Shown here in pieces: positions 4,183 to 25,182 of a stretch of DNA of 26,995 nt. Origin of the DNA: a virus. Where the stretch lies: IMG/VR virus record IMGVR_UViG_3300024999_000332, positions 1 to 26,995 of that record, one strand, 5' to 3'. The notes under the pieces are model-generated. The model ran no database searches. It was not told the DNA's origin and worked only from the letters and a program-made list of their open reading frames with translations. The stretch's first letter is position 1, and every line of letters starts with the position of its first letter. The position numbers and the translations under genes were made by a program.

Positions 4183-4388
4183 GCCACCGCCACGCGGCAC
4201 CGGCATCGCGGGTGCCCGCAGCCGGTGATCGGATCTCCCCAGACGATCGCCGCCTCCTGGACGTCGAGCGGGACCTCCGCGTCGGCGGGGAAGCGACGCA
4301 GGCGGGTGAGCACCCGGACCATGCCGCGGTTCTCGGGCTGGATCTTCCGCGCGGCACGGAAGAAGGCGCGAAGATCCCGGACCGTCAC
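4179..4388 (-). CDS. Hypothetical small protein with C-terminal Cys/His motif (69 aa)
   Basis: This unknown protein begins VTVRDLRAFFRAARK, likely an amphipathic helix, and ends GCGHPRCRC, a compact Cys/His cluster that could bind a metal. The GTG start at 4388 overlaps the stop of the methyltransferase gene. It sits between overlapped genes on both sides, so it is almost certainly translated, but nothing in the sequence assigns a role. Confidence 0.65.
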   Translation of the reverse strand: MTVRDLRAFFRAARKIQPENRGMVRVLTRLRRFPADAEVPLDVQEAAIVWGDPITGCGHPRCRCRVAVA

Positions 4389-5119
4389 GGCACCCCCAGC
4401 AGCGCGCCCGCGGCGCGGGTGCGGGCGATCTTGCGGGCGAGGGCGGGCACGACGTCGCGCAGGTCCTGGCCGAGGGTGGCGGGCGACTCGTTGCCGGCGC
4501 AGAACCAGCGGGGGCGGGCGCGCCGGGCGAAGAGCTCCAGGTAGGGCCCGTCCGGGAACATGCGCTCGAGCGCGTCCTGGACGACCTCGGTCTTGACCGA
4601 GTAGGCGAGCGCGGGCGCCTCGAACACGTCGCGGGTGGCGCGGTCGCGAAGGTGCCGGTACGGCGAGCCGCGCACCCCGACCGCCGCAACCTCCTTCGCC
4701 GCGCGCGCGAGGCGCCCGAGGCCGAAGTGCAGCTTGCCGATCCGGCGGCTGATCCGCGCCGCCAGCTCCTTCGCGCCCACCCCCTCGGCCATCGCCTCCG
4801 TGACGATGGCCTGGACCTCGGCGGGCGTCGGCGGAGCCGGACGCTTCGACCACACCCACTCCCCGACGGGGCGGAAGCCCCACGCGCGCATGACGCGCGC
4901 GCCGTCCTCGGCCATCGACGAGGGGCGCCAGAGGACGCAGACGGCGTCCTCGGCCATGCACTCCCCGACCGGAAGGGCGGCGACGTCGTCGGTGGTCATG
5001 ACCGCGTAGTTGGAGGCGGCGCCACGCGGCACCTCCGACATGGTGAGATGATCCCCGAACGCCCAGGAGGGATCGGCGGCCACGACCCGGTAGGGCCGGA
5101 AGACGTCGGAGGCGCTCAC
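4385..5119 (-). CDS. MT-A70 family DNA N6-adenine methyltransferase
   Basis: The 244-residue protein matches the MT-A70 group of SAM-dependent methyltransferases, which methylate N6 of adenine. The catalytic motif DPSW (16-19; canonical form DPPW) follows RVVAA, and the order of motifs is circularly permuted as expected. VLWRPSSM and WVWSKR form the core strands, and GPYLELFARRARPRWFCAGNE near residue 200 matches the conserved family end where SAM binds. An internal insert of ~60 residues (PTPAEVQAIVTEAM and onward, a helical segment) is longer than in minimal family members. The GTG start at 5119 overlaps the upstream stop. It is probably a stand-alone phage methylase for evading restriction. 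Recognition sequence unknown. Confidence 0.85.
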   Translation of the reverse strand: MSASDVFRPYRVVAADPSWAFGDHLTMSEVPRGAASNYAVMTTDDVAALPVGECMAEDAVCVLWRPSSMAEDGARVMRAWGFRPVGEWVWSKRPAPPTPAEVQAIVTEAMAEGVGAKELAARISRRIGKLHFGLGRLARAAKEVAAVGVRGSPYRHLRDRATRDVFEAPALAYSVKTEVVQDALERMFPDGPYLELFARRARPRWFCAGNESPATLGQDLRDVVPALARKIARTRAAGALLGVP

Positions 5120-8362: not shown

Positions 8363-9112
8363 CTACCGCCAGGGCGGTTGCGCGTCGTCGTCGCTCGCCC
8401 ACGCCGGCGCATCGGCGTCGCTGGGCAAAGGCGCCTCCTCGGGCCAGGGCGGGGCGACGTCCTCCTCGGCCGGCGGCGGAGCGGGGCGGGAAGGGGCCTC
8501 GCGCCGGTCCACCGCGGCGGCGAGCGCGCCGCCCCCGAAGCGCTGCGGCCCGCGATCGCGCATCTCGAGGATCCGCGCGTAGGCGGCGGGGGTGTGCCGC
8601 ATGCTCTCCTCCAGCACGGGCAGTTCGCGGTGGGTGACGTGCGTGCGCGTCGTGGCCGGGCTCGCGGTCCAGGCGTCGAGCACCTCGCGGAAGGGCGGGG
8701 CCGCGCCCGCCATGGACGCGCCGAGCTCGCAGTCGCACTTCGCGATCACCACCCGCACCTCGGCGAGGCCGTTGCGCTCGAAATGCCGCGCCATCTCCCG
8801 CCAGCCCGGTTGGCGCGCGCAGTCGGGGCAGCCCTTCGGCGCCGGCCCGCGCGGAAGCGCTCGCGCCGCCGCCGTGCCGCGGCTGGCGCGCCCGCGCCCA
8901 CCCTTCCCGCCGCCGAGGCGCTTGACGATGGTGGCGAGCTTCGGCGCGGACTCGTCCTCGCGCAGCACCCCGGCCGTCACCACCTGGAGCTGGGAGAGCG
9001 GGACGTGCTCGAGCGCCTTGTACCACTCGACGAGCAGCTCCCCCTCGACCTTCATCCGCGGCCACTGCTGGCGCAGGTACCCGATGATGACGTCGACGTC
9101 GGCGCGGCTCAC
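8363..9112 (-). CDS. Putative helicase-loader-type replication protein with zinc motif (249 aa)
   Basis: The N-terminal ~65 residues (DVIIGYLRQQWPRMKVEGE, LLVEWYKALEHVPLSQLQV, then ESAPKLATIVKRLG) follow the pattern of the G39P-type loader/inhibitor domain of phage replicative helicases: short helices, a WY-x-AL segment, and a Pro before the last helix. A central Cys pair (CPDC, about 80) and a second pair (KCDC) may form a zinc site. The C-terminal part is Pro/acidic-rich and ends in AQPPWR. It is the third of three overlapped genes after the initiator-like gene, as expected for initiator-loader order. No helicase gene is in the window. Domain assignment is by pattern, so moderate. Confidence 0.65.
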   Translation of the reverse strand: MSRADVDVIIGYLRQQWPRMKVEGELLVEWYKALEHVPLSQLQVVTAGVLREDESAPKLATIVKRLGGGKGGRGRASRGTAAARALPRGPAPKGCPDCARQPGWREMARHFERNGLAEVRVVIAKCDCELGASMAGAAPPFREVLDAWTASPATTRTHVTHRELPVLEESMRHTPAAYARILEMRDRGPQRFGGGALAAAVDRREAPSRPAPPPAEEDVAPPWPEEAPLPSDADAPAWASDDDAQPPWR

Positions 9113-9756
9113 CGCCGGCTCCCGTCGCCCAGGCGCCGGAACCCGCCGCCGCGATCCCCGCCGTCGCCGAGCAGCCGCGTGACGTCGAAGCCGCCGGTGA
9201 TCGCCCCCACCTCGGCGCTCACCGCCTTGCGGGTGCGGGCCGCGGTGTAGGCTTCGCGGAAGCGGCGCGAGGTGTGATGCTCCTGGGCCTCGGTCGCGTC
9301 GCGGTAGCCGATCGTGCCGCCGATGGCGGCGAGGCCCTCGCGCATCGCCGCGTCGCGGCCGGGGTTGTCGGCGTCGAGCTCTCCCGCCCGCGGGTCGCGC
9401 CCGCGCCGCCGGCCGGTGCCCTCGCCCACGTACTCCCCGAACCCGACTTGCCGGCACCAGGTCTTCACCGCCGCCCAGGCCACGTCGGAGTCGTCGAGCG
9501 CCGCGAGCTGGCGGCGCGGAACGAGCGCGAGCAGCCGGCCGGTGTCCGGCCACGGTTTCCAGAACTGCCCCGGCGGGAGCGGCTCGCGGACGTAGGCGAG
9601 CACCGCGGCCTCCAGGTCGGCGAGGGAGAGGTCGGCGAGGGCGGCGGCGTAGACCCTCGCGGCGGCGGGCAGGTTGCCGGCGATCGCCGGTTCGGGCTTG
9701 ATGCCCGCCAGCTCGAGCACCTGGAACGACGCGAGGACGTGCTTCGGTTCGATCAT
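9109..9756 (-). CDS. Putative replication accessory protein related in layout to the adjacent loader (215 aa)
   Basis: The N-terminal ~80 residues (ASFQVLELAGIKPEP, AARVYAAALADLSLADLEAA, then WPDTGRLLAL) have the same helix order as the next gene: a helix, a YxxAL-type helix, a following helix, then a Pro-containing segment before the last helix. It could be a second helicase-loader-like or primosome protein. The C-terminal half is Arg/Gly-rich (TGRRRGRDPR, GDGGDRGGGFRR) and likely disordered and basic. The ATG at 9756 overlaps the initiator stop (ATGA) and has GAGGAACC just upstream, a near match to the cassette ribosome site. Confidence 0.55.
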   Translation of the reverse strand: MIEPKHVLASFQVLELAGIKPEPAIAGNLPAAARVYAAALADLSLADLEAAVLAYVREPLPPGQFWKPWPDTGRLLALVPRRQLAALDDSDVAWAAVKTWCRQVGFGEYVGEGTGRRRGRDPRAGELDADNPGRDAAMREGLAAIGGTIGYRDATEAQEHHTSRRFREAYTAARTRKAVSAEVGAITGGFDVTRLLGDGGDRGGGFRRLGDGSRR

Positions 9757-10844
9757 CGGGGTTCCTCGGAGAAGGGCACGTCGAGCGCGCCGGGTCGGGG
9801 TGGGGAGGCGCCGCCGCCGTCCATCTTGGCAAAGGCGGCGGCGTAGCGGTCGGCCATTGGGGCGACGCCGCGGCCGGGCGGGGCACCGGCGCGAGGCTGC
9901 GGAGTCGGGACCGCGAGGCACCCGAGGCGCACGCCCCAGGTGTGCCAGAGGTGCTGGGCAAGGGCCCGGCGGACGGGCTCGTTGAGGCCTCGGCCAGCGT
10001 GTCGCAAGTCGTCCAGCGGGAGCGAGAGCAGCCCGCGGGTGGACTCGATCCCGGCGCGCAGCACGGCCTCCAGGATGAGCACCCGGCCGGCGGTCGCGCC
10101 GAACAGGAGCGCGGTGAGATCCCCGGGTAGCTCTCGACCGTCAACCTCGACGGGGCTCGTGTCGGGGAGCGGCATCGGCGGCGGGGGCGGCGGGTAGGCG
10201 CGGCGGGGCTGGCCGCCCGGGTCCACGGCAGTGGTTGTCCCGGGCGGCGCTCCGGCTACCGCATGCGGCCCTCCAGGTGAAGCGGGTCGGGGGGCCTCCG
10301 GCGCGCGTGCGCGTGAACCCCCCAGATCGGTGATCCGGTGATCCGGTGTTTCCTCTGATCGCGCACGTGGCGGTGAGCTGGCGGCGCGCTGGCGATCCGC
10401 TGGCGATCCGCTGGCGATTTTAGCGGAATTGTCGGCTTTGGTCCGCGTCGTGGCTGGCGATCCGCTGGCGGCGCGCTGGCGATCCGCTGGCGATCCGCTG
10501 GCGAACGGCTCGGGGGCAGGCTCCCCGTCCCGAGTCCAGGTGTCCTCCCAGGCTTTGTGGTCGGCGACGACCTCCTTCACGGCGTGATCGGTCCACCCCC
10601 AGCGCGCGCGCAGGGCTGGGCGGCCGGGCATGCGCGCGACGCGGAACCGGCCTCGGGCGCCGCGTTCCCGGCCCTCGGCGGCGGCCATCGCCGTCGCACG
10701 CACCTGGCCGCGCCACCACCGGAGATCCATCCACACGGCCTCCTCGGGCCAGGGACGGGTGAGCCCGTCGGCGATCGCCGGCCACCACTCGGCGTCGAGC
10801 GGCTCGAACCCGAGCGGGTCGAAGTCCAGCTCGCGGGCGCTCAC
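9753..10844 (-). CDS. Replication-initiator-like protein with internal iterons (363 aa)
   Basis: The N-terminal domain (DLRWWRGQVRATAMAAAEG at about 41-59, then RPALRARWGWTDHAVKEVVA) looks like the winged-helix DNA-binding region of phage replication initiators, where a WGW-type turn leads into the recognition helix. A middle low-complexity linker follows, coded by nine copies of an 11-bp repeat (10377-10507), which gives GSPADRQRAASGSP-like peptide. A Pro-rich hinge (YPPPPPPMPLP) leads to a helical C-terminal domain (GRVLILEAVLRAGIESTRG). The GTG at 10844 overlaps the upstream stop. An initiator with its origin inside its own gene, followed by loader-like genes, parallels lambda O/P. The role is inferred. 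Confidence 0.65.
   Translation of the reverse strand: MSARELDFDPLGFEPLDAEWWPAIADGLTRPWPEEAVWMDLRWWRGQVRATAMAAAEGRERGARGRFRVARMPGRPALRARWGWTDHAVKEVVADHKAWEDTWTRDGEPAPEPFASGSPADRQRAASGSPATTRTKADNSAKIASGSPADRQRAASSPPRARSEETPDHRITDLGGSRARAPEAPRPASPGGPHAVAGAPPGTTTAVDPGGQPRRAYPPPPPPMPLPDTSPVEVDGRELPGDLTALLFGATAGRVLILEAVLRAGIESTRGLLSLPLDDLRHAGRGLNEPVRRALAQHLWHTWGVRLGCLAVPTPQPRAGAPPGRGVAPMADRYAAAFAKMDGGGASPPRPGALDVPFSEEPR
10377..10507. repeat. Nine-copy 11-bp iteron array: candidate replication origin
   Basis: On the plus strand the unit is GCTGGCGATCC. Copies start at 10377, 10388, 10399, 10410, then 10453, 10464, 10475, 10486 and 10497. Five are exact; 10377 and 10464 both read GCTGGCGGCGC, and the two array-end copies (10410, 10497) vary in the last bases. 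The arrays (4 and 5 units) are split by a 32-bp gap at 10421-10452. A run with far more A+T than its surroundings spans 10416-10438 (TTTTAGCGGAATTGTCGGC lies in it). Eleven bp is about one helical turn and is not a multiple of three, so selection appears to act on DNA, not peptide. Confidence 0.75.
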
Positions 10845-11020
10845 GGAGCGGATGCCGCGGGGGTGGTGGAGGAGAAGAGCAGGCGGCGTCCGCGGGGCTC
10901 ACCCGCCGCCGGGTCACGGTCCGGCGGCGGGGAGCCGCGGCCCCACGTGGGGGCCGTCAAGTCGTGGACGGTGGGGTGCCGATGCCGTGACGCCGTCGGA
11001 CCCTGAAGACGTCGATCCAT
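10841..11020 (-). CDS. Possible small protein (59 aa), upstream of the initiator gene
   Basis: This frame begins at ATG 11020, which shares bases with the TAA stop of the preceding small frame (TAATG), and ends at a TGA overlapping the GTG of the initiator gene. Both junctions fit translational coupling. The product (MDRRLQGPTASRHRHPT...) is Pro/Arg/Ser-rich with no recognised domain. Its third-base G+C is lower than in neighbouring genes. It may instead be a leader that sets initiator expression. Confidence 0.35.
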   Translation of the reverse strand: MDRRLQGPTASRHRHPTVHDLTAPTWGRGSPPPDRDPAAGEPRGRRLLFSSTTPAASAP

Positions 11021-11232
11021 TACCCCGAGCACGCGGCCGAGGTCAAGCGCGATCGGGTGGCAACACCCCGGCCCGGCCTTGCGCGAGGCGTCGCCACGGG
11101 GCACACTTGGGGTGCCCTGATCCGTCGCTTGGTCGGCCCGCCACCTGCAAAGGCGGCGGGTGCCCGCAAGGGCCGACGAGGACGGGTGCGGTGAGCCCAC
11201 ACGATCGTGCTCCCGCGGCTCCCCTCCGGCAC
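11020..11232 (-). CDS. Possible small basic protein (70 aa) with strong ribosome site
   Basis: A GTG at 11232 lies just after GGAGAACC and GGAGG, one of the better ribosome sites in the window. The product is rich in Arg, Pro and Ala (HRTRPRRPLRAP, GGGPTKRRIRAP) with two Cys and no family. In this stretch all three minus-strand frames have similar, reduced third-base G+C, so coding is uncertain. A 6-bp stem (GGGCAC/GTGCCC, 11099-11117) lies within it. It could be a real small gene or a structured leader. Confidence 0.35.
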   Translation of the reverse strand: MPEGSRGSTIVWAHRTRPRRPLRAPAAFAGGGPTKRRIRAPQVCPVATPRARPGRGVATRSRLTSAACSG

Positions 11233-11277
11233 GCTCCTCCGGTTCTCCCGGGCGCGCTGGAGGGGGCCTCACGTCCG

Positions 11278-11670
11278 TCACTTGCGGGCCCGCTCGACGC
11301 GCCACCCGCGCAGGCGCATCCAGGTGGCGACGTCCTCGGGGCGACCGCTGCGAACCAGGCTCCTGGCCATGCCGTGGACCATCCCGAGCCGCGTGGCGTG
11401 CTCGACGAGCTCTTCGGAGCTGCACTCGATCCCGCCGTCCCCGTCCTCGGGCATGACGTACCAGCGTGCTTCCTCGGCCTCGCGCACGCGCTTCCCCGCC
11501 TGCAGCCCGCGCACGAGGTGGCGGCGCACGCCGCGCAACGTCTCGCGCACGCGGTCGTCGAGGTGGCGGCGCACCCTCCCGACGTCAACGTGCTCGAGGA
11601 GCCCTTCCGCGTCCATCTCGGCGAGCACGGCGTCGACGTAGCCGGCGATCGCCTCGTCTACTCCAGCCAC
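11278..11670 (-). CDS. Hypothetical helical protein (130 aa)
   Basis: This unrecognised protein appears wholly helical: EAIAGYVDAVLAEMDAEG, then RVRRHLDDRVRETLRGVRR, then a C-terminal segment (EELVEHATRLGMVHGMARS). The GTG at 11670 lies 13 bases inside the SbcC-like gene end, which supports coupling. It may serve the SbcC/SbcD complex or the replication genes that follow, but this rests only on position. Confidence 0.65.
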   Translation of the reverse strand: MAGVDEAIAGYVDAVLAEMDAEGLLEHVDVGRVRRHLDDRVRETLRGVRRHLVRGLQAGKRVREAEEARWYVMPEDGDGGIECSSEELVEHATRLGMVHGMARSLVRSGRPEDVATWMRLRGWRVERARK

Positions 11671-14321
11671 GCGCGGCCTCCCTCGACGCGGAGGAGGACG
11701 TCGGCCTGCTCCCAAGCCTGCTGGCGGTGGCTGATGAAGAAGACGTTGCGGAAGCCGCCGAGCTCCATCGCGCGGCGCAGCATCGGCGGGTAGAGCGAGG
11801 CCCAGGCGTCGGAGAGGCCGCGGTCGGCCTCGTCCCGGTAGAGCGTCTCGATGTGGGTGCCAGCGCGCCGCGCGTTGAAGACGACGAGCGCCAGCTTCAG
11901 CGCCTCGTCGACGAGGGTGAACTCCCCCTCGGAGAGGCGGTCGGTCGGGCCCCGGCTCGCCCGCAGGCCGTCGAGGACGTCGATCTCAAATACCTCCTTC
12001 TGAACGCGGCCCCCTCCCGCCTCCTGGATGGTGCGGAGGTTGACGGTGAAGCGCGGCCCGAAGCACGACTCCAGGATCTCGTTGGTGAGCGTGGACACCT
12101 CGGGGCCGGCGGCGTCGATCTCCAGCGCCTGGATCCCCGACCGGCCGAAGGCGTTCTCGACGAGGACGAACCCGGCGCGGCGGAAGGCGACGCGCTGGCG
12201 CTTCTCCTCCAGGTCGGCGCGGCGCTTCGCGACGTCCCCGAGCTGGGCCAGCTTCCCACGGAGCACGTCGAGGTTGGAGCGCGCGGCCACCACCGCGGCG
12301 CGCGCGGCGGCGAGGGCCTGGCGCGCGGCGGCGGTGCGGGCGTTGGCGGCGTCGGCGTCGACGCGCGCGCCCTCGGGGTCGGGCGGGATCTCCACCTCGT
12401 CGCGGGCGAGAGCGGCGGCGTACTCGCGCCGCTCGGCCCCCGTCAGCGTCTCGCGGAGGAGCGGGAGCTGCGCCGCCGCCGCCTCCAGCTCCCGGAGGCG
12501 CGTGTCCGCGCCGGCGTGGGCGCTCACGGTCGCCTTGGCGAGCCGCCCGCGCTTGGCCACCGCAGCCTCGGCGGAGGACGCCTCCACCACCGCGGCCTCG
12601 GCGACGGCGAGGTCCGCCTCCAGGGTGGAGACGCGCGCCGTCGCCTCGTCGAGCGTGGCCTGCGCGTCGGCCGCCGCGGTGACGGTGGCGCGGTGACGGA
12701 CCGCCGCCTGCTCCTGCGGGACGCGCGCCTGGACGGCGGCGGCGGCCCGGTCCCGCTCGGCTCGCAGCTGGGTCAGCGCCGCCTCGCGCGCGTTGGCGTC
12801 GACGATGGCCCGGTCGGTCGTGGCCTTGCGCGCCTCCAGGTCTGCGACCTCGAGCTCAAGGTTCGGGACGCGCTCCGAGGCCGCGCGCGCGTCGGTGAGA
12901 AAGCGGCAAGTGCCCGCGTCCGCCCGCGTCCCACACCCGACCTCCTCGTCCGCCTCCGAGCCGAACGTCAGCATGCGCCGCCCGCCGCACGGCACCGCGC
13001 TCACGAGGCTCGCCGCCTTCCGCGCGGTGTCGAGGGCGGTGCGGTTGACGGTCAGCTTCGCGCCCAGGGTCGAGGCCTCGTCGAGGAGCCGGCGGCGCTC
13101 GGGTGCGAGCACGGCCTCCTCCTCGCGGGCGCGCTGGTCGAGGCGCGCGTGGTCGGCGCGGAGCTGCTCGAGTTCGGCGAGCGTGGGCGCGAGCTCGACG
13201 AGGGCGCGACGCGCCAGGTCCGCGCCGGAGAGGGCGGCGGTGGCGCGGGTGACGGAGGTGCGCGCCGCGTCGAGGGCCGTGCGCTTGTCGTCCCGGGCGG
13301 TGGTGGCGGCGCGGCTCACCGCGCGCGCGGCGCGCCAGTCCGTCTCGGCCGAGGCGACGTCGGCCTGGGCGATGACGAGCGCGGCGGCGCGCTCGCGCAC
13401 CCCCACCTCGTCGGCGACGACGGCCTCCAGCGCGGCGATGCGCTCGCGCGCGACCCGCGCCTCCTCGGCGGCGGCGCGCTCCTCGGCGTCGAGATCCGCA
13501 CGCCGCTTCAGCGCGGAGGCGCGCGCGGCCTCCAGCGTCTGCAGGAGCCCGACGGCGCGCTGGCCAGCGTCAACGGCGGCGTGCAGGCCGGCGTCGGCCT
13601 GGGCCTCGGCGGTGACGAGCGGGGCGAGCGCCGCGTCCGCGCCCGCCACCTGGTCGCGCAGCTCGGCGGCGACGGTGGCGTCCTCGAGCACGCGCGCCAC
13701 CTCGCGATCGAGGTCGGCCATCTTCGCGTCGAGCAGCTTGCGCGCGATGGCGGCGCGCTCGGCGCGCGCCTGCAGGTCCCCGAGCGCGAGGAGGTCGGCG
13801 AAGAGCGCCTTGCGCGCCTCGGGCTTCATGCCGAAGAAGTTGCCGGCGCGGTTCTGCGCGGAGAAGGCGCTCGCCATGTACAGCGACTTCGGGGGGAAGC
13901 GGCCGACCACCGCGGCCTCGCCGTCCTTCGCGGGGCGGCCGCGGACGAGCAGGTCGAAATCGGTCGTCCGCCCCTTGGTGTCCTCGCAGCCGGGGCCGTA
14001 CAGGAACGCCTCCATCGCGCCCGCGCCCTGGCGCGCCTCGGCGTCGATCTTCAGGAGGCTGCGGTACTGGTCCCCGCCGTATTCGAAGGTGAGGTCCACC
14101 GTCGCCGCGCGCCCCGTGCAGTAGCGCGGGAGCGAGTCCGCGCGCGTCGAGAGCTCTCGCCAGAGCGGGACGGGGCCGCCGAGCGCGTCGAGCAGCGACG
14201 TCTTCCCCTCGCCGTTGCCGCCGACGACGGCGACGAGGCCGGGCGGGAGCTCGGTCAGGTCCAGGGTGAGTGGGGTCGTGAAGCGCGTGAACCCCGAGAG
14301 GGTGAGCAGGAGCGGTCGCAT
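11658..14321 (-). CDS. sbcC: SbcC/Rad50-like SMC-family ATPase
   Basis: This 887-residue protein is the ATPase and coiled-coil partner of an SbcD/Mre11 nuclease, which opens hairpins and trims DNA ends (T4 gp46 is the phage counterpart). The Walker A loop is GGNGEGKTS at 34-42. Long coiled-coil arms run from about 190 to 700. The ABC signature LSEGE is at 796-800, Walker B acidic pair Asp830-Glu831 (YRDEAD) and a FISHRQ switch near the end. At the arm tip the usual CxxC hook is replaced by Cys445, Cys463 and Cys472. ATG 14321 follows GGAGAACCG. The partner nuclease lies at 15664-16956 in a separate unit. Confidence 0.92.
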   Translation of the reverse strand: MRPLLLTLSGFTRFTTPLTLDLTELPPGLVAVVGGNGEGKTSLLDALGGPVPLWRELSTRADSLPRYCTGRAATVDLTFEYGGDQYRSLLKIDAEARQGAGAMEAFLYGPGCEDTKGRTTDFDLLVRGRPAKDGEAAVVGRFPPKSLYMASAFSAQNRAGNFFGMKPEARKALFADLLALGDLQARAERAAIARKLLDAKMADLDREVARVLEDATVAAELRDQVAGADAALAPLVTAEAQADAGLHAAVDAGQRAVGLLQTLEAARASALKRRADLDAEERAAAEEARVARERIAALEAVVADEVGVRERAAALVIAQADVASAETDWRAARAVSRAATTARDDKRTALDAARTSVTRATAALSGADLARRALVELAPTLAELEQLRADHARLDQRAREEEAVLAPERRRLLDEASTLGAKLTVNRTALDTARKAASLVSAVPCGGRRMLTFGSEADEEVGCGTRADAGTCRFLTDARAASERVPNLELEVADLEARKATTDRAIVDANAREAALTQLRAERDRAAAAVQARVPQEQAAVRHRATVTAAADAQATLDEATARVSTLEADLAVAEAAVVEASSAEAAVAKRGRLAKATVSAHAGADTRLRELEAAAAQLPLLRETLTGAERREYAAALARDEVEIPPDPEGARVDADAANARTAAARQALAAARAAVVAARSNLDVLRGKLAQLGDVAKRRADLEEKRQRVAFRRAGFVLVENAFGRSGIQALEIDAAGPEVSTLTNEILESCFGPRFTVNLRTIQEAGGGRVQKEVFEIDVLDGLRASRGPTDRLSEGEFTLVDEALKLALVVFNARRAGTHIETLYRDEADRGLSDAWASLYPPMLRRAMELGGFRNVFFISHRQQAWEQADVLLRVEGGRAWLE

Positions 14322-14358
14322 CGGTTCTCCGGGCGCATGGTCGAGTGCGCCTCCCCCA

Positions 14359-14387
14359 TCCTTACACCGACTCGGCGCGGAGTGCAA
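14359..14387 (-). promoter_or_regulatory. Family promoter for the SbcC-replication unit
   Basis: On the minus strand: -35 TTGCAC (14387-14382), a 17-nt spacer with CCGCGCCG and ending TCGGTG, and -10 TAAGGA (14364-14359). The first three bases of the -10 are the TAA stop of the Mom-like gene. CGACCA follows at 14343-14338 and GGAGAACC before ATG 14321. It drives the SbcC-like gene and, by overlaps, probably the genes down to 8363. Confidence 0.8.
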
Positions 14388-15243
14388 CGACCGCCGCGGC
14401 ACGATCCTTCTTCGGGTAGGGGCGGGCCGGGGCCGTGGTGTCGGGCAGCGTGTTGGCGACCCCGGCCGGATCGAAGACGTAGACGTGGTTCCCCGGGTGG
14501 CGAAGCGGGGTGAACGGGCCCTCGCCGCCGCGGGTGATCCGCTCCACCCACCGCGTCCACGTCTCGTGAGGCCGGCGCGGCTGGGCTCCGAGGGCGAGCA
14601 GCGTGCGCGCGTAGGCGGCGCCGCCCTTGGACTTCACGGGATCGCCGGTGTCGAGAGCGCGGACTTTGGAGAGGGATCGGCCATCGAGGAGGCAGCCGCG
14701 CGCGTCGAGCCACTTCAGCTCGGGATCCGAGAGCCCGACGTAGCGCGCGCCCTTCGCCTGGTAGGCGGCGCCGACGTGGCCGGGCATGGTCACCACGCCG
14801 GCCTCGTCGCGGCGCGGCACGGGGTCGGAGTAGGAGAGTACGGCGCGGACGCGAGGGCGGTCGGCCTGGAGGATCGCGAAGGCGCGCGCCAGCGTCCACG
14901 TCTCCGCGTTGAACGGCACCTCGTCGAGCAGCACGAGGCGGTTGAGCTGGAGGCCCTCGTCGGCGGGCACGCCCGTCCAGCGCGGGATCGACTTCTGCGA
15001 CGCCCCGGTGCCGAAGGTGCACACGCCGACGAGCTCGGGCGCGAAGAACAGGCGGCGGCGGTAGAGGCCGACGCACACCGACACCGACGGCCAGCTCCCC
15101 GAGTAGTGGTGGCGCGTCACGAACTCGCGCGCGGTCGCGTGCCGATCGAGCAGCTCGACGCCGAAGCCGCTCGGGTCGAAGGCCTCGCCGCGCCGGCGGA
15201 ACGACTCCCGCCGCTCGCGCCAGCGCTGGGTGCGGTCGGTCAC
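14362..15243 (-). CDS. mom: Mom-like DNA adenine modification enzyme (GNAT fold)
   Basis: The 293-residue protein matches phage Mu Mom, an acyltransferase-fold enzyme that converts adenine in DNA to a carbamoylmethyl derivative and blocks many restriction enzymes. Family signatures are present in order: RHHYSGSWPSVS (44-55), LVGVCTFGTGAS (71-82), LQLNRLVLLDEVPFNAET (98-115) followed by LARAF, and VLSYSDP (135-141) leading to GAAYQAKG. An N-terminal basic region and a ~100-residue C-terminal extension are extra relative to Mu Mom. The GTG at 15243 overlaps the stop of a zinc-motif protein, and SbcD-like is two genes upstream. No Com-type regulator is recognised, though the upstream zinc protein could act like one. 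Confidence 0.82.
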   Translation of the reverse strand: MTDRTQRWRERRESFRRRGEAFDPSGFGVELLDRHATAREFVTRHHYSGSWPSVSVCVGLYRRRLFFAPELVGVCTFGTGASQKSIPRWTGVPADEGLQLNRLVLLDEVPFNAETWTLARAFAILQADRPRVRAVLSYSDPVPRRDEAGVVTMPGHVGAAYQAKGARYVGLSDPELKWLDARGCLLDGRSLSKVRALDTGDPVKSKGGAAYARTLLALGAQPRRPHETWTRWVERITRGGEGPFTPLRHPGNHVYVFDPAGVANTLPDTTAPARPYPKKDRAAAVVALRAESV

Positions 15244-15663: not shown

Positions 15664-16956
15664 TCACGCCGCGCTCCCGCACGCCGCCAGCGAGTCGGCC
15701 GCGATCTCCTCGTCGGTGCGGGTGTCGATCTCGGCGAGCGCGTCGATCGCTGCGGCCTGCTCGTTCGCGTCGGGGGCGGTCGCGAGCGTCCCCCAGAAGG
15801 CGCGCATCTTCGTGGGCGCGTCGATCGCCGCGGCGACCTCGGGAGCGCGCATCCGCAGGCGCGGCTCGATCTTCCGCTCCTGCTTCACGCGGTGGGCGAG
15901 GGCCTCGACGCGGGCGACCTCGTCCGCCCAGGGGCAGCCGGACACCCACTGCTCGGGGACGACGAGGACCAGCTTCACCTCGGCGCCCGCGCAGCTCGCG
16001 ATCTCCGCGTCGGTGGGGCGGGTGATCCAGCGCGGCACACCCTCGTCGTGGTCGGCCGCCCAGCGGTAGTGGAGGGTGACGAAGTCGCGGCACGGGGAGG
16101 CGTGGTGCTCGACGTAGACGGCGGCGCGCTCTCCCGGGACGGCGGGGTAGGCGCCCTCGCCGAGGGGGGCGTGGGCGCGGGCGACGTCGACGGGACCCAC
16201 GTGCACAAGGTGCCAGCCTTTCACGTCCTTCTCGCCGAAGTCGTTGCGCCACGGGCTGCCCGGGTACCAGGCGCGGACGGCGACCTCCTGGCGGAGGTGG
16301 ATGTGCCCGAGGGCGATGTAGTCGGCGGGGAGGCCGTCGAGCTCGTGCCGGGTGAGCTCGATCTCCTGCCCCGCCAGCACCTCGCCGCCGCTGGTCCGGC
16401 ACCCGGACACCTGGACGTGCGCGAGCACGACGTGAGCCTCGGCCGGCGCGGCCGCGCGGCGGGTGCGCATGCGGTGACCCCACATCGCGAGCAGCACGCG
16501 CAGCCGCTCCTCGATCGCGCGCTGCGCCCCCGCCATGCCCCCCTCGATGGCCTCGCCCGCGAGGAGCGCACGCTTGGTGGGGTAGGCCATCGCGTAGACG
16601 TGGCACGGGCCCGCCAACGTGTCGACGGTGATGGCGCGCGCGTCGGCCACGACGACGATCGGCCAGGCTCCGCCGAGGTGCTGCAACCCCGCCACGTCCT
16701 CGGCGACGTCGTGGTTCCCGACGACGACGACGACCGGGGCCTGGCTCGCGAGTCGGACGATCGCCGGGTAGAGCACCGCGCGCTCGCGCGGGGTCGAGCG
16801 GTGGGGGACCTCGTGGCCGTAGAGGTCGCCTGCGACGAGGATGAGGTCGGGCTCCGCGGCGAGGATGTCGTCGACGACGGCGGCGAGCGTCGCGGCCTGG
16901 TCGGCGAGGCGAGCGCCTTCGGTGACGTGGGGGTCGGCGAGGTGGGCGATGCGCAT
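15664..16956 (-). CDS. sbcD: SbcD/Mre11-like metallophosphoesterase nuclease
   Basis: This is the nuclease partner of the SbcC-like ATPase; it cuts hairpins and processes double-strand ends with two metal ions. The metallophosphoesterase motifs are in order: HLADPH (Asp8, His10), AGDLYGH (Gly43-Asp44), GNHD (80-83), AHVQVSG and GHIH. After the catalytic core come a capping region and a C-terminal helical part (EVARVEALAHRVKQER). The 430-residue length is normal. The ATG at 16956 follows GGAGAACC and is the first gene behind its own promoter. Unlike the usual adjacent sbcD-sbcC pair, a zinc protein and a Mom-like gene plus a promoter lie between the two. Confidence 0.92.
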   Translation of the reverse strand: MRIAHLADPHVTEGARLADQAATLAAVVDDILAAEPDLILVAGDLYGHEVPHRSTPRERAVLYPAIVRLASQAPVVVVVGNHDVAEDVAGLQHLGGAWPIVVVADARAITVDTLAGPCHVYAMAYPTKRALLAGEAIEGGMAGAQRAIEERLRVLLAMWGHRMRTRRAAAPAEAHVVLAHVQVSGCRTSGGEVLAGQEIELTRHELDGLPADYIALGHIHLRQEVAVRAWYPGSPWRNDFGEKDVKGWHLVHVGPVDVARAHAPLGEGAYPAVPGERAAVYVEHHASPCRDFVTLHYRWAADHDEGVPRWITRPTDAEIASCAGAEVKLVLVVPEQWVSGCPWADEVARVEALAHRVKQERKIEPRLRMRAPEVAAAIDAPTKMRAFWGTLATAPDANEQAAAIDALAEIDTRTDEEIAADSLAACGSAA

Positions 16957-16996
16957 GGTTCTCCTACAGGGACGTGGTCGTGCGTCCCGTGCTCGC

Positions 16997-17025
16997 ACCT
17001 TACGCCACCACGGCGCGGGGCGCAA
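16997..17025 (-). promoter_or_regulatory. Family promoter for the SbcD-Mom unit
   Basis: On the minus strand: -35 TTGCGC (17025-17020), a 17-nt spacer with CCGCGCCG and ending TGGCG, and -10 TAAGGT (17002-16997). CGACCA follows at 16980-16975 and GGAGAACC before ATG 16956. It lies about 30 bp downstream of two hairpins that end the preceding unit. Confidence 0.8.
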
Positions 17026-22896: not shown

Positions 22897-23211
22897 TCAC
22901 ACGATCGCGTGTGCGGCACCGTAGAGCCGGCGCAGCCCTGCCTCGTCGCCGGCCTCGCGGAGGGCCGCCGCGCGGAAGGCCCGCGCCATCGGGAACTCGG
23001 CCGCCGCCCACTCCCAGACGGCACGCCACTGGCTCGCGGTGAGCCGGCGCGCCCAGCGCGGACGGAGGGGCTCAAGCGAGAAGTGCACGCACCCCCAGGA
23101 GTCCCTCCCCCGGAAGTGCAACCCGCCGTGCAGGGTCCGCGACCCCTGCAGCGCCTCCTCCAGGAGCCGGCCGCGCATCCGCCAGCGGTGCCGGCGCTGG
23201 CGGGCGTTCAC
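22897..23211 (-). CDS. Hypothetical basic protein (104 aa)
   Basis: The protein is Arg-rich and mostly helical (RQRRHRWRMRGRLLEEALQ, SQWRAVWEWAAAEFPMARA) with a short strand region (LHGGLHFRGRDSWGCVHF). It is not recognised. The GTG at 23211 overlaps the stop of the DUF5131 gene. The basic nature suggests nucleic-acid contact, without proof. It is the last gene before the GATC-rich hairpin. Confidence 0.65.
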   Translation of the reverse strand: MNARQRRHRWRMRGRLLEEALQGSRTLHGGLHFRGRDSWGCVHFSLEPLRPRWARRLTASQWRAVWEWAAAEFPMARAFRAAALREAGDEAGLRRLYGAAHAIV

Positions 23212-24176
23212 GCCGCCACCGGGAGCTGGTCCCAGGTGGCGCCGTCGAGGAGGCGCCCGGCCGCCTTCTTCCCGTAGCGGAGGACGACCTCGGCGCCGGC
23301 GCCCGCCGCCTCGCGCGTGCAGTGGACGTGTCCGGCGTCGTCGACCAGGTAGGCCGGCGGCGAGCCAGCCGCGCCGTCGAGGGTGCTGTAGGGGGTGACG
23401 CCGTCGTGCGGACCCCACTCCCCGTGTTGCTTGAACAGGAAGGGGACGTCAGCAGCAACGCACTGGTCCCGAACCGAGCGGAACCACGCGGGGTGCGAGG
23501 GCCGCGCGTGCGCCCCCGACTCGCCGCCAACGATCCCCCACTCGATCCGGTTCGCGCCGCGGAGCACGTCCCGCGCCGCCCAGAAGGCGGAGTCGGTCCG
23601 TGGGTCGCGCACCATGGTGAGGTCGACGCGGCCGAGGAGCGGCTCCATCGAGAGCCAGCGCACCGCGTCGGGGACCTCGAGCAGGAACGGGATCCGCTCG
23701 TCGGCCCGCCGCTGGTCCTCGACGGTGACGCCCGGCCACACGTGGCGCGGCCAGCTCCCGAGCCGCGCGACGACGGCCGCCGCCACCTCGGGCCAGCGCG
23801 CCGCGCGCTTGGTGAGGAGGAGCCAGTCGCAGTCGGGGCGCGCCGCCATGGCCACGATCACCTCGACGATCCAGGCGAGCGGGACGTCCCGGTGGAGGAT
23901 GTCCGACATCGACGTGACGAAGATCCGCCGCCGGAAGGTGCGGCACCGCGGGTAGGCGAGCACGCGCCGCACGGCCTCCGCGACGTCCACCACCCGCACC
24001 CCGCCCACCCACCGCCCGTCCCGGGTCGTGCCCGCGTACTCGACCTGCCCCATCCGCTCGAGCCTCGCCGCCATGCCCATCGCGTAGCAGTGCGCGCAGG
24101 CGGGGCTCTCCATGTCGCACCCGTACAACCCGGGGTTGAGCGTGTCCGTCGCCCATTCGATCCCTGTCCGTCCCAT
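23208..24176 (-). CDS. DUF5131 (phage Gp37/Gp68-type) protein
   Basis: The 322-residue protein fits DUF5131, a family found in many phages and annotated as Gp37/Gp68 or radical-SAM-like. The N-terminal signature is seen as TGIEWATDTLNPG followed by Cys20, Cys27 and Cys30 (GCDMESPACAHCYA), a three-cysteine motif able to hold an iron-sulfur cluster. Other conserved parts are FVTSMSDILH, WLLLTKRAARW, WPGVTVEDQ, RWLSMEPLLG and GIVGGESGAHARP. The reaction is not established. The ATG at 24176 has GAGGAGG upstream and is the first leftward gene from the divergent control region. Confidence 0.9.
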   Translation of the reverse strand: MGRTGIEWATDTLNPGLYGCDMESPACAHCYAMGMAARLERMGQVEYAGTTRDGRWVGGVRVVDVAEAVRRVLAYPRCRTFRRRIFVTSMSDILHRDVPLAWIVEVIVAMAARPDCDWLLLTKRAARWPEVAAAVVARLGSWPRHVWPGVTVEDQRRADERIPFLLEVPDAVRWLSMEPLLGRVDLTMVRDPRTDSAFWAARDVLRGANRIEWGIVGGESGAHARPSHPAWFRSVRDQCVAADVPFLFKQHGEWGPHDGVTPYSTLDGAAGSPPAYLVDDAGHVHCTREAAGAGAEVVLRYGKKAAGRLLDGATWDQLPVAA

Positions 24177-24197
24177 CCGGTACCTCCTCGCGGCTCT

Positions 24198-24228
24198 TGG
24201 TCGGTCACGCCGCTCGCGCACGGTAGCA
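24198..24228 (-). promoter_or_regulatory. Putative extended -10 promoter and leader for the DUF5131 unit
   Basis: On the minus strand, TGCTACCGT (24228-24220) is an extended -10 (TGnTAnnnT), like that at 1659-1667. The palindrome GTTGCAAC (24238-24231) lies just upstream, and CGACCA (24203-24198) lies 21 nt before ATG 24176. There is no CGCGCCG box and no clear -35. Confidence 0.45.
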
Positions 24229-24259
24229 TGGTTGCAACCCACCTACCCGCCCGGGTAGG
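24224..24259 (+). promoter_or_regulatory. Rightward control region: possible -10 and an inverted-repeat operator
   Basis: TAGCAT (24224-24229) could be a -10 for the rightward genes, with a weak TCGGTC (24201-24206) at 17 bp; it overlaps the leftward -10. Downstream, CCTACCCG (24242-24249) and CGGGTAGG (24252-24259) are perfect arms two bases apart, ending 8 bp before ATG 24268. That position suits an operator or a hairpin over the ribosome site. Promoter assignment is weak; the repeat is certain. Confidence 0.4.
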
Positions 24260-24267
24260 CTGAAGGC

Positions 24268-25182
24268 ATGGCACGCAGCACCATCCCCTGGGACGAGCTC
24301 TTCGCGTGGATGGTGGCCAACGCCGCCACCCCCGCCGCCGCCGCCGCCCGCTTCGGCGTCAATCCCTCCAGCGTCCGGCCCGCCGTGAAGCACGAGGCGG
24401 ACAAGCTCGGGGGCGGGCGCCTGGGCGGGCACCCCACCTACGGCAAGCCCCTCCCGCCCGGCACGACCGCGGGCGATGCAACGCCCGCCCTCGATCCCGC
24501 GACCGCCGCGGCCGTCTACGTCCCGCTCTCCCAGCTCCGGCCCTGGGCGCGCAACCCGAAGAAGCACGGGGAGGCGGACGCGATCGCCGCGTCGATCATC
24601 CGCTGGGGGTTCGCCACCCCCCTCGTCGCGCGGCTCGCCGACCGGGAGATCATCGCCGGTCACGGTCGCATCGCCGCGGTCATGTCTCTGCAGAAGCGCC
24701 ACGCCCGCGCCTCCGCGGCCGACCGCGAGGCCTGGCACCCCGAGGCCGTTCGGCTCGCCCACGCGCCCGACCCCGAGCTCCCCGTCCGCTACATGGACCT
24801 GAACGAGGACGAGGCGCACGCCCTCGCCCTCGCCGAGAACGAGGCGAGCCGCGCGACCGGCTACGACCCCGCCGTCCTCGCCGCCGTGCTGCGCGACTTT
24901 CGCGCCCGCGGGGTGTCCACCGCCGCGATCGGCTGGAACCCCGCCGTCATCACCCGCATGGTCGGCGACGGGCCGAAGAGCCGGGGCCGACTGCCCGCCG
25001 CCGAGCGCTCGCCCGTCCGTCGCGTCACCATCGAGCTGTACGACGAGGACGCCGGGCTCCTCCGCCGCGCCATCGACGCCGCGCGCGAGGACGACGATCC
25101 CACCTCTCCCGAGCGAGAGCGGACCAACGGTCGGCGCCTCGGTCGGGTGTGCGCCGCCTTCCTCGCCGCGCGCGGCGCATAG
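24268..25182 (+). CDS. ParB/Srx-fold protein with N-terminal helix-turn-helix, next to terminase
   Basis: The 304-residue protein has an N-terminal helix-turn-helix (about 21-43, TPAAAAARFGVNPSSVRPAV), then a ParB-like domain at about 84-200: VPLSQLRPWARNPKKH, AASIIRWGFATPLV, the GHGR motif (131-134) and LALAENEAS. A C-terminal part (VTIELYDEDAGLLRRAI) is of unknown role. Such ParB-like proteins commonly sit beside phage terminase or methyltransferase genes; CTP binding or nuclease activity has been shown for some relatives only. The ATG at 24268 has GAAGG upstream. Its TAG stop overlaps a possible GTG start of the next gene. Confidence 0.8.
   Translation: MARSTIPWDELFAWMVANAATPAAAAARFGVNPSSVRPAVKHEADKLGGGRLGGHPTYGKPLPPGTTAGDATPALDPATAAAVYVPLSQLRPWARNPKKHGEADAIAASIIRWGFATPLVARLADREIIAGHGRIAAVMSLQKRHARASAADREAWHPEAVRLAHAPDPELPVRYMDLNEDEAHALALAENEASRATGYDPAVLAAVLRDFRARGVSTAAIGWNPAVITRMVGDGPKSRGRLPAAERSPVRRVTIELYDEDAGLLRRAIDAAREDDDPTSPERERTNGRRLGRVCAAFLAARGA

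Follow-up and report, generated by a model that had tools for sequence, protein, structure and literature searches.

What do nine copies of an 11-bp unit do in the middle of a viral gene? The window analyzed here is the whole of IMG/VR record IMGVR_UViG_3300024999_000332 (26,995 bp, 74% G+C), which derives from an uncultured virus and is possibly a fragment. The first-pass annotation had described four plus five units around a 32-bp gap within the linker of a gene and had read them as the iterons of a replication origin designed like that of phage lambda; the unit coordinates bear out the arrangement. Iteron array 1 (10377..10420, plus strand) consists of four units, starting at 10377, 10388, 10399, and 10410, and iteron array 2 (10453..10507, plus strand) of five, starting at 10453, 10464, 10475, 10486, and 10497. 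The core GCTGGCG is common to 9/9 units, with four-base tails that vary (GCGC, ATCC, ATCC, and ATTT in array 1; ATCC, GCGC, ATCC, ATCC, and AACG in array 2); five of the nine are exactly GCTGGCGATCC, with GATC inside each. Degenerate units extend the lattice, namely unit 0, CGTGGCGGTGA (CGTGGCG; 10366..10376, plus strand), and one after array 2, GCTCGGGGGCA (GCTCGGG; 10508..10518, plus strand). The two arrays were the two top-scoring tandem segments of the window (TRF also reported them), no segment of equal score arose in 12 dinucleotide-preserving shuffles, and a search of the window found no second array elsewhere. The 32 bp from position 10417 are 50% A+T, which places them in the top 0.1% of windows, few others being equal or higher. 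When the codons of the gene were resampled synonymously, GCTGGCG cores numbered 2.1 on average and seven at most (20,000 trials), compared with the nine observed. Thus, the protein sequence does not by itself impose the repeat. Units 10377–10417 and 10464–10504 resemble an in-frame duplication offset by 87 bp, and at this offset both arrays encode ASGSPADRQRAAS in the same frame.

The gene carrying the arrays (9753..10844, minus strand) is an open frame of 363 aa, assigned as an initiator gene from N-terminal-domain homologues that likewise carry arrays, and its product is divided into an N-terminal helix-turn-helix (HTH) domain, a linker that contains the arrays, and a C-terminal helix-hairpin-helix-like domain. 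The N-terminal domain (aa ∼12–105; 10530..10811, minus strand), delimited by a 23-locus alignment and an AF2 model, is the putative iteron binder. Its model (pLDDT 87.7) is all-helical, with five helices and the HTH formed by helices 75–82 and 86–94; a β-wing after the recognition helix was not found in it, and neither model nor profile searches gave a confident PDB match. The winged-helix-like domain predicted by the first-pass annotation was therefore replaced by a wingless HTH. The domain had no match in cultured phages, plasmids, Pfam, PHROGs, or PDB. The linker appears disordered; it is of low complexity and rich in proline, serine, alanine, and arginine. The C-terminal domain (aa ∼222–305; 9930..10181, minus strand) was recognized by alignment and is also present in L022/L056; its model is of low confidence (pLDDT 64) and weakly resembles the RNAP α-CTD and the RAD51 N-domain (all E > 0.5). 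Within the initiator group, the C-termini form a mosaic, and one of them, in the relative L009/L029, gave a hit to PHROG 678 "replication initiation O-like" (E 1.6e-6).

Whether the arrays belong to a family of such genes was addressed by searching for relatives. Direct searches with the window protein yielded no match in phages (tblastn, 50,697 records), plasmids (72,556 records), or viral contigs; four other family members were likewise without a match in the phage records, two scans of 84,980 bacterial and archaeal genomes with the N-domain profile gave no relatives, and the exact 22-bp double iteron was not found in viral contigs. Scanning viral contigs for three tandem cores (GCTGGCGNNNN) matched 19 contigs, of which six distinct ones (plus near-copies) have the split arrangement of the window, and the genes of these split-array contigs share the N-terminal domain with the window protein (consensus W..IA..L..PWP..A..DLRWW.DQ...PGRPAL..RWGWTDH.VR.LLRD..W). 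Contigs L004, L008, L010–L013, L016, L018, and L020 show the GCTGGCG tandem pattern without the split architecture and were set aside; in L018, three GCTGGCG units at 11-bp spacing (46–74) lie at the end of an integrase-like gene and are perhaps integrase arm sites or a chance occurrence. N-domain profiles, with the repeat ignored, added 16 further distinct loci (L025, L027, L028, L031, L034–L040, L043, L047, L048, L049, and L051). The domain is thus present on 22 other distinct contigs, all from distantly related uncultured viruses, which with the window makes 23 loci. The homologue searches used exact short patterns, which more distant members lacking an array might escape; the three protein-profile scans did not select on the array, and none returned a domain without one.

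In 16/16 of the loci found through the protein, the N-domain is directly followed by 11-bp arrays that flank a gap, those of L035 being weak (three clear units). A homologue keeping the domains without the repeat, named by the first-pass annotation as the finding that would speak against an origin, was looked for among these 16 and encountered in none, which supports the original proposal of iterons within the linker of an initiator gene as a replication origin of lambda-like design. The jump from core to core across the gap is 43 bp in 13 of the first 18 loci, 44 bp in four, and 54 bp (43 + 11) in L033, whose array 2 opens with a degenerate unit; in the five loci found later it is 43 bp in three, 44 bp in one, and about 44 bp in L048 (counted by eye, ignoring one unit with two mismatches). 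The core itself varies between phages (GCTGGCG, GCTGGAG, GCTGGAC, GCTGGCC, GCTGGTG, GTGGTAG, GTGGTAC, and CCGGTAG, with L051 being odd). Relative to the reading frame, the element occurs in all three phases (9/5/4), and its translation is not the same from locus to locus. Selection therefore acts on the DNA, and the array is not a peptide repeat, as had been proposed from the unit length of the window's array. A peculiar case is L028, where some 20 units follow position 4207 and the gap module is repeated at least four times, each at a 43-bp jump, as if half of the origin had been duplicated.

The sequences between and beside the arrays were also conserved. The 32-bp gap (10421..10452, plus strand), delimited by the 43/44-bp jump in the relatives and by information content, contains a 13-bp motif (about GATWNTCGGCGTT) that is conserved and keeps a constant distance to array 1; in the window the element reads GAATTGTCGGCTTT (about 10427–10440), and the motif recurs in L047 as GATATTTTCGGCGTT. 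In each locus, the gap has a lower G+C content than the genome. As an unwinding element it is nevertheless disfavored by the conserved motif and the fixed length, which are more like those of a protein site. An IHF site in the gap was exact in L036 and present with one mismatch at the same place in L034; for the whole set, comparison with shuffles gave p 0.07, and it was dropped as a general feature. Toward the C-terminal side, array 1 is followed by a CGCG box (CGCGCACGTGG; 10360..10370, plus strand), CGCG marking the array border in 17/18 loci, and then by short tandem repeats, in the window CGGTGATC in 2.6 copies (10328..10348, plus strand; detected by TRF) and in relatives, for example, TCTGTCTCTGTCTCTG (L021) or CTCTGTGCTCTGTGCTCTG (L026). 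These flank repeats are unusual compared with other windows of their own locus (p < 0.05 in 16/18 loci; combined p about 1e-20). Judged by sequence, the most likely candidate unwinding element is not the gap but the flank with these tandem repeats next to the CGCG box. A G/T strand bias of the flank is strong in most relatives but was not seen in L031, L035, or the window, and for this reason the flank is described here by its tandem repeats only.

The GATC inside five units of the window had been suggested to tie initiation to adenine methylation. The five units do contain it; however, the arrays proper of 14/17 relatives contain no or nearly no GATC (L021 and L028 have three each, L035 one), and it is in excess across the window as a whole (233 observed compared with about 61 expected from base composition). 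Being neither conserved nor restricted to the array, the tetranucleotide does not support a methylation link as part of the design. GC skew, which had been proposed as a check, tracked gene direction, with no switch at the array.

If the encoded protein reads the iteron, residues of its HTH should change together with the bases. Such covariation was found between residue 87 (H87 in the window; 10584–10586, minus strand), which follows the RWGWTD motif, and iteron base 7: in 23/23 loci, H, W, or Y goes with G, and R or K with C. In the AF2 model, residue 87 comes second in the predicted recognition helix (aa 86–94, DHAVKEVVA; 10563..10589, minus strand). The association was apparent in the first 18 loci (permutation p 0.004 over all columns), and over 23 loci mutual information was maximal at residue 87 (p < 0.0002 over columns; next best column p 0.9). 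The rule for base 7 was written down before the loci of the last scan were examined, and that scan used the first half of the N-domain only, which made it blind to residue 87; the five later loci obeyed it 5/5 (W-G, R-C, K-C, W-G, and W-G). For the odd cores (L027, L028, L039, and L051), the register was set by anchoring to the gap. Parsimony gave five changes each for residue and base, and the three independent pairs on well-supported branches were all concordant; with five inferred changes, three of them well supported, a phylogenetic sign test cannot reach 0.05. The covariation is what would be expected if the encoded protein reads the iteron, and suggests that it does. Residue 76, a proline of the PGRP motif in the window (P76; 10617..10619, minus strand), paralleled the TGG/GGTA register in 18/18 of the first set, with V or L accompanying GGTA-type cores in relatives. 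A simple rule of proline versus non-proline was later broken by L048, which combines G with a TGG core, and by L051, which has R and an odd core; position 76 is regarded as a hint only.

Loader-like genes had been proposed just downstream of the initiator. For the window itself no support for this was found: the gene after the initiator (9109..9774, minus strand), a putative helicase loader by position only, and the next one (8363..9130, minus strand) match no family and have no clear similarity to the gene in the corresponding place of the closest relative; the initiator's neighbor has no match in phages or viral contigs either, and neither a helicase nor a family-matched loader was seen in the window. 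The relatives gave a clearer picture. A DnaB-type helicase is encoded directly after the initiator in L029, L039, L049, and L051 (Pfam DnaB_C, E 1e-47 to 2e-92), and inspection of Walker-A frames pointed to DnaB-like genes in L026 and L031, AAA+ loader-like genes in L033 and L040, and, 3 kb downstream, a DnaB-like frame in L043. With an IstB/DnaC-like AAA+ protein in L028 (Pfam IstB-like), ten relatives in all have a DnaB helicase or AAA+ loader near the initiator.

Other parts of the window deserve mention in their own right. Between the start of the initiator gene and the upstream gene lie 433 bp without a clear gene (10845–11277), with several G+C-rich inverted repeats, perhaps a promoter, terminator, or regulatory RNA; Rfam gave no match for this segment, and Rfam and tRNA searches were empty. 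Upstream of the initiator gene, SbcC-like and SbcD-like subunits (11658–14402 and 15664–17025, minus strand; the SbcD-like protein without a match in phages) flank a gene for a Mom-family DNA-modification protein (14362–15240, minus strand; Pfam Mom 8e-22; about 32–37% identity to parts of Mom-like phage proteins), from which the phage may hypermodify its own DNA. An MT-A70 adenine methyltransferase domain (4385–5110, minus strand; Pfam 6e-18) and a DUF5131 family protein (23208–24242, minus strand; Pfam 1e-77) are encoded as well, as is a 408-aa protein without a match in viral contigs or phages. A ParB-like protein (24268–25182, plus strand; PHROG 1e-23) is encoded opposite to most genes, and its neighbor resembles, by eye only, a terminase small subunit.

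Taken together, the data make it very probable that the phage starts theta-type replication here, from an origin contained within the linker of its initiator gene. The most serious competitor is an operator or copy-control (handcuffing) site that serves self-repression or titration, with the true origin elsewhere. Plasmid iterons serve control as well as initiation, and the covariation, which suggests binding by the encoded protein, is by itself no proof of initiation. However, the site lies in mid-gene and not at a promoter, the fixed 43-bp geometry, the conserved gap site, and the repeat-rich flank are origin-like, and DnaB or loader genes adjoin it in relatives, which leaves this explanation improbable. 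Against an origin at the array speak the lack of a GC-skew switch there and of a recognizable helicase or loader gene in the window; it is also possible that a different main origin is located elsewhere, the window being a 27-kb record and possibly a fragment.

Iteron-like arrays occur at partition sites too, and a ParB-like protein is encoded in the window; the arrays could accordingly be a centromere-like site that is bound by the HTH protein and is not an origin. The ParB-like gene is, however, about 14 kb off, the domain that would read the iterons is encoded in the array's own host gene, which adjoins DnaB/AAA+ loaders in relatives, and the lack of relatives in the 84,980 bacterial and archaeal genomes gives no sign of a stable plasmid-prophage lifestyle. 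A partition site is hence very hard to reconcile with the data. Equally far-fetched is a feature of the protein, i.e., repeat expansion within a low-complexity linker with no function of the DNA. The linker does appear disordered, and the same peptide is encoded twice in one frame; yet this reading is already contradicted by the three frame phases and differing peptides of the relatives, by the resampling that never yielded nine cores, and by a unit length that is not a multiple of three, with spacing and flank conserved as DNA.

The preferred reading, an origin within its initiator gene, builds on what was computed (the arrays, DNA-level conservation in every frame phase, fixed spacing, flank and gap motifs, the helicase or loader neighbors of the relatives, and the covariation), and from this we infer binding, melting, helicase recruitment, and a start of replication at the array. 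The helical N-terminal HTH domain would bind the 11-bp iterons, and the four-unit and five-unit arrays, at a fixed 43 bp from core to core, would thereby be joined in a single nucleoprotein complex lying more or less along one side of the helix; the conserved gap site would probably accommodate either a DNA bend or another contact with protein. This complex would go on to melt the simple-repeat flank next to the CGCG box, toward the C-terminal end of the gene as seen from the arrays, and the helicase or helicase loader encoded just downstream would be recruited by the divergent C-terminal portion of the protein.

Such an origin would have precedents. In lambda, the central part of gene O contains the iterons along with an A+T-rich unwinding tract, and gene P is adjacent (PMC7466680); as here, the iterons are within the coding sequence of the initiator, in the linker after its DNA-binding domain. 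Unlike lambda, where four iterons (six in Stx phages) form one block with a flanking A+T-rich tract, the family of the window has two blocks (typically 4 + 5) of 11-bp units with a 43–44-bp jump, a CGCG box, and a simple-repeat flank. Sequence or profile homology to lambda O was found neither for the window protein, compared with Pfam and PHROG, nor for its N-domain; the window protein also does not match PHROG 678, in contrast to the C-terminal part of L009/L029. In SPP1, direct repeats are inside gene 38 for the origin-binding protein (oriL), together with an A+T-rich unwinding element, and the genes for loader 39 and the DnaB-type helicase 40 follow (PMC6316719). The position of the repeats within the gene of the origin-binding protein is shared; the repeat geometry differs, SPP1 has a second origin, oriR, whereas the window has no second array, and tblastn of the window protein against the 50,697 phage records revealed no homology to gp38. 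Iteron plasmids, too, have iterons in tandem, spaced by roughly one helical turn and next to an unwinding element; the initiator binds them. Their iterons are usually outside the rep gene; here, they are inside, and the protein was unmatched in the 72,556 plasmid records. The best explanation, by analogy, is that the locus works like the lambda and SPP1 origins, with the same design and a different domain, split 11-bp geometry, gap site, and flank.

Beyond the origin itself, it seems rather probable that these genes represent an undescribed family of phage initiators with an in-gene origin architecture of its own, i.e., two 11-bp arrays 43–44 bp apart with a conserved site in the gap between them, CGCG at the border, and simple repeats as the unwinding flank, and that very few residues, chiefly 87 and possibly 76, set iteron specificity, having switched together with the DNA several times and each switch having created a private origin. 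The locus would add an initiator/origin family that is known only from uncultured phages and had no counterpart in the protein libraries searched. Under a simple rule, a single amino acid goes with a single origin base, and the joint change of the initiator and its embedded origin would be directly testable by swaps of single residues. Sequence alone may thereby suffice to locate origins in metagenomic phage contigs. The family also illustrates how one stretch of DNA can carry two codes, with the function of the DNA being kept while the phase of the reading frame drifts.
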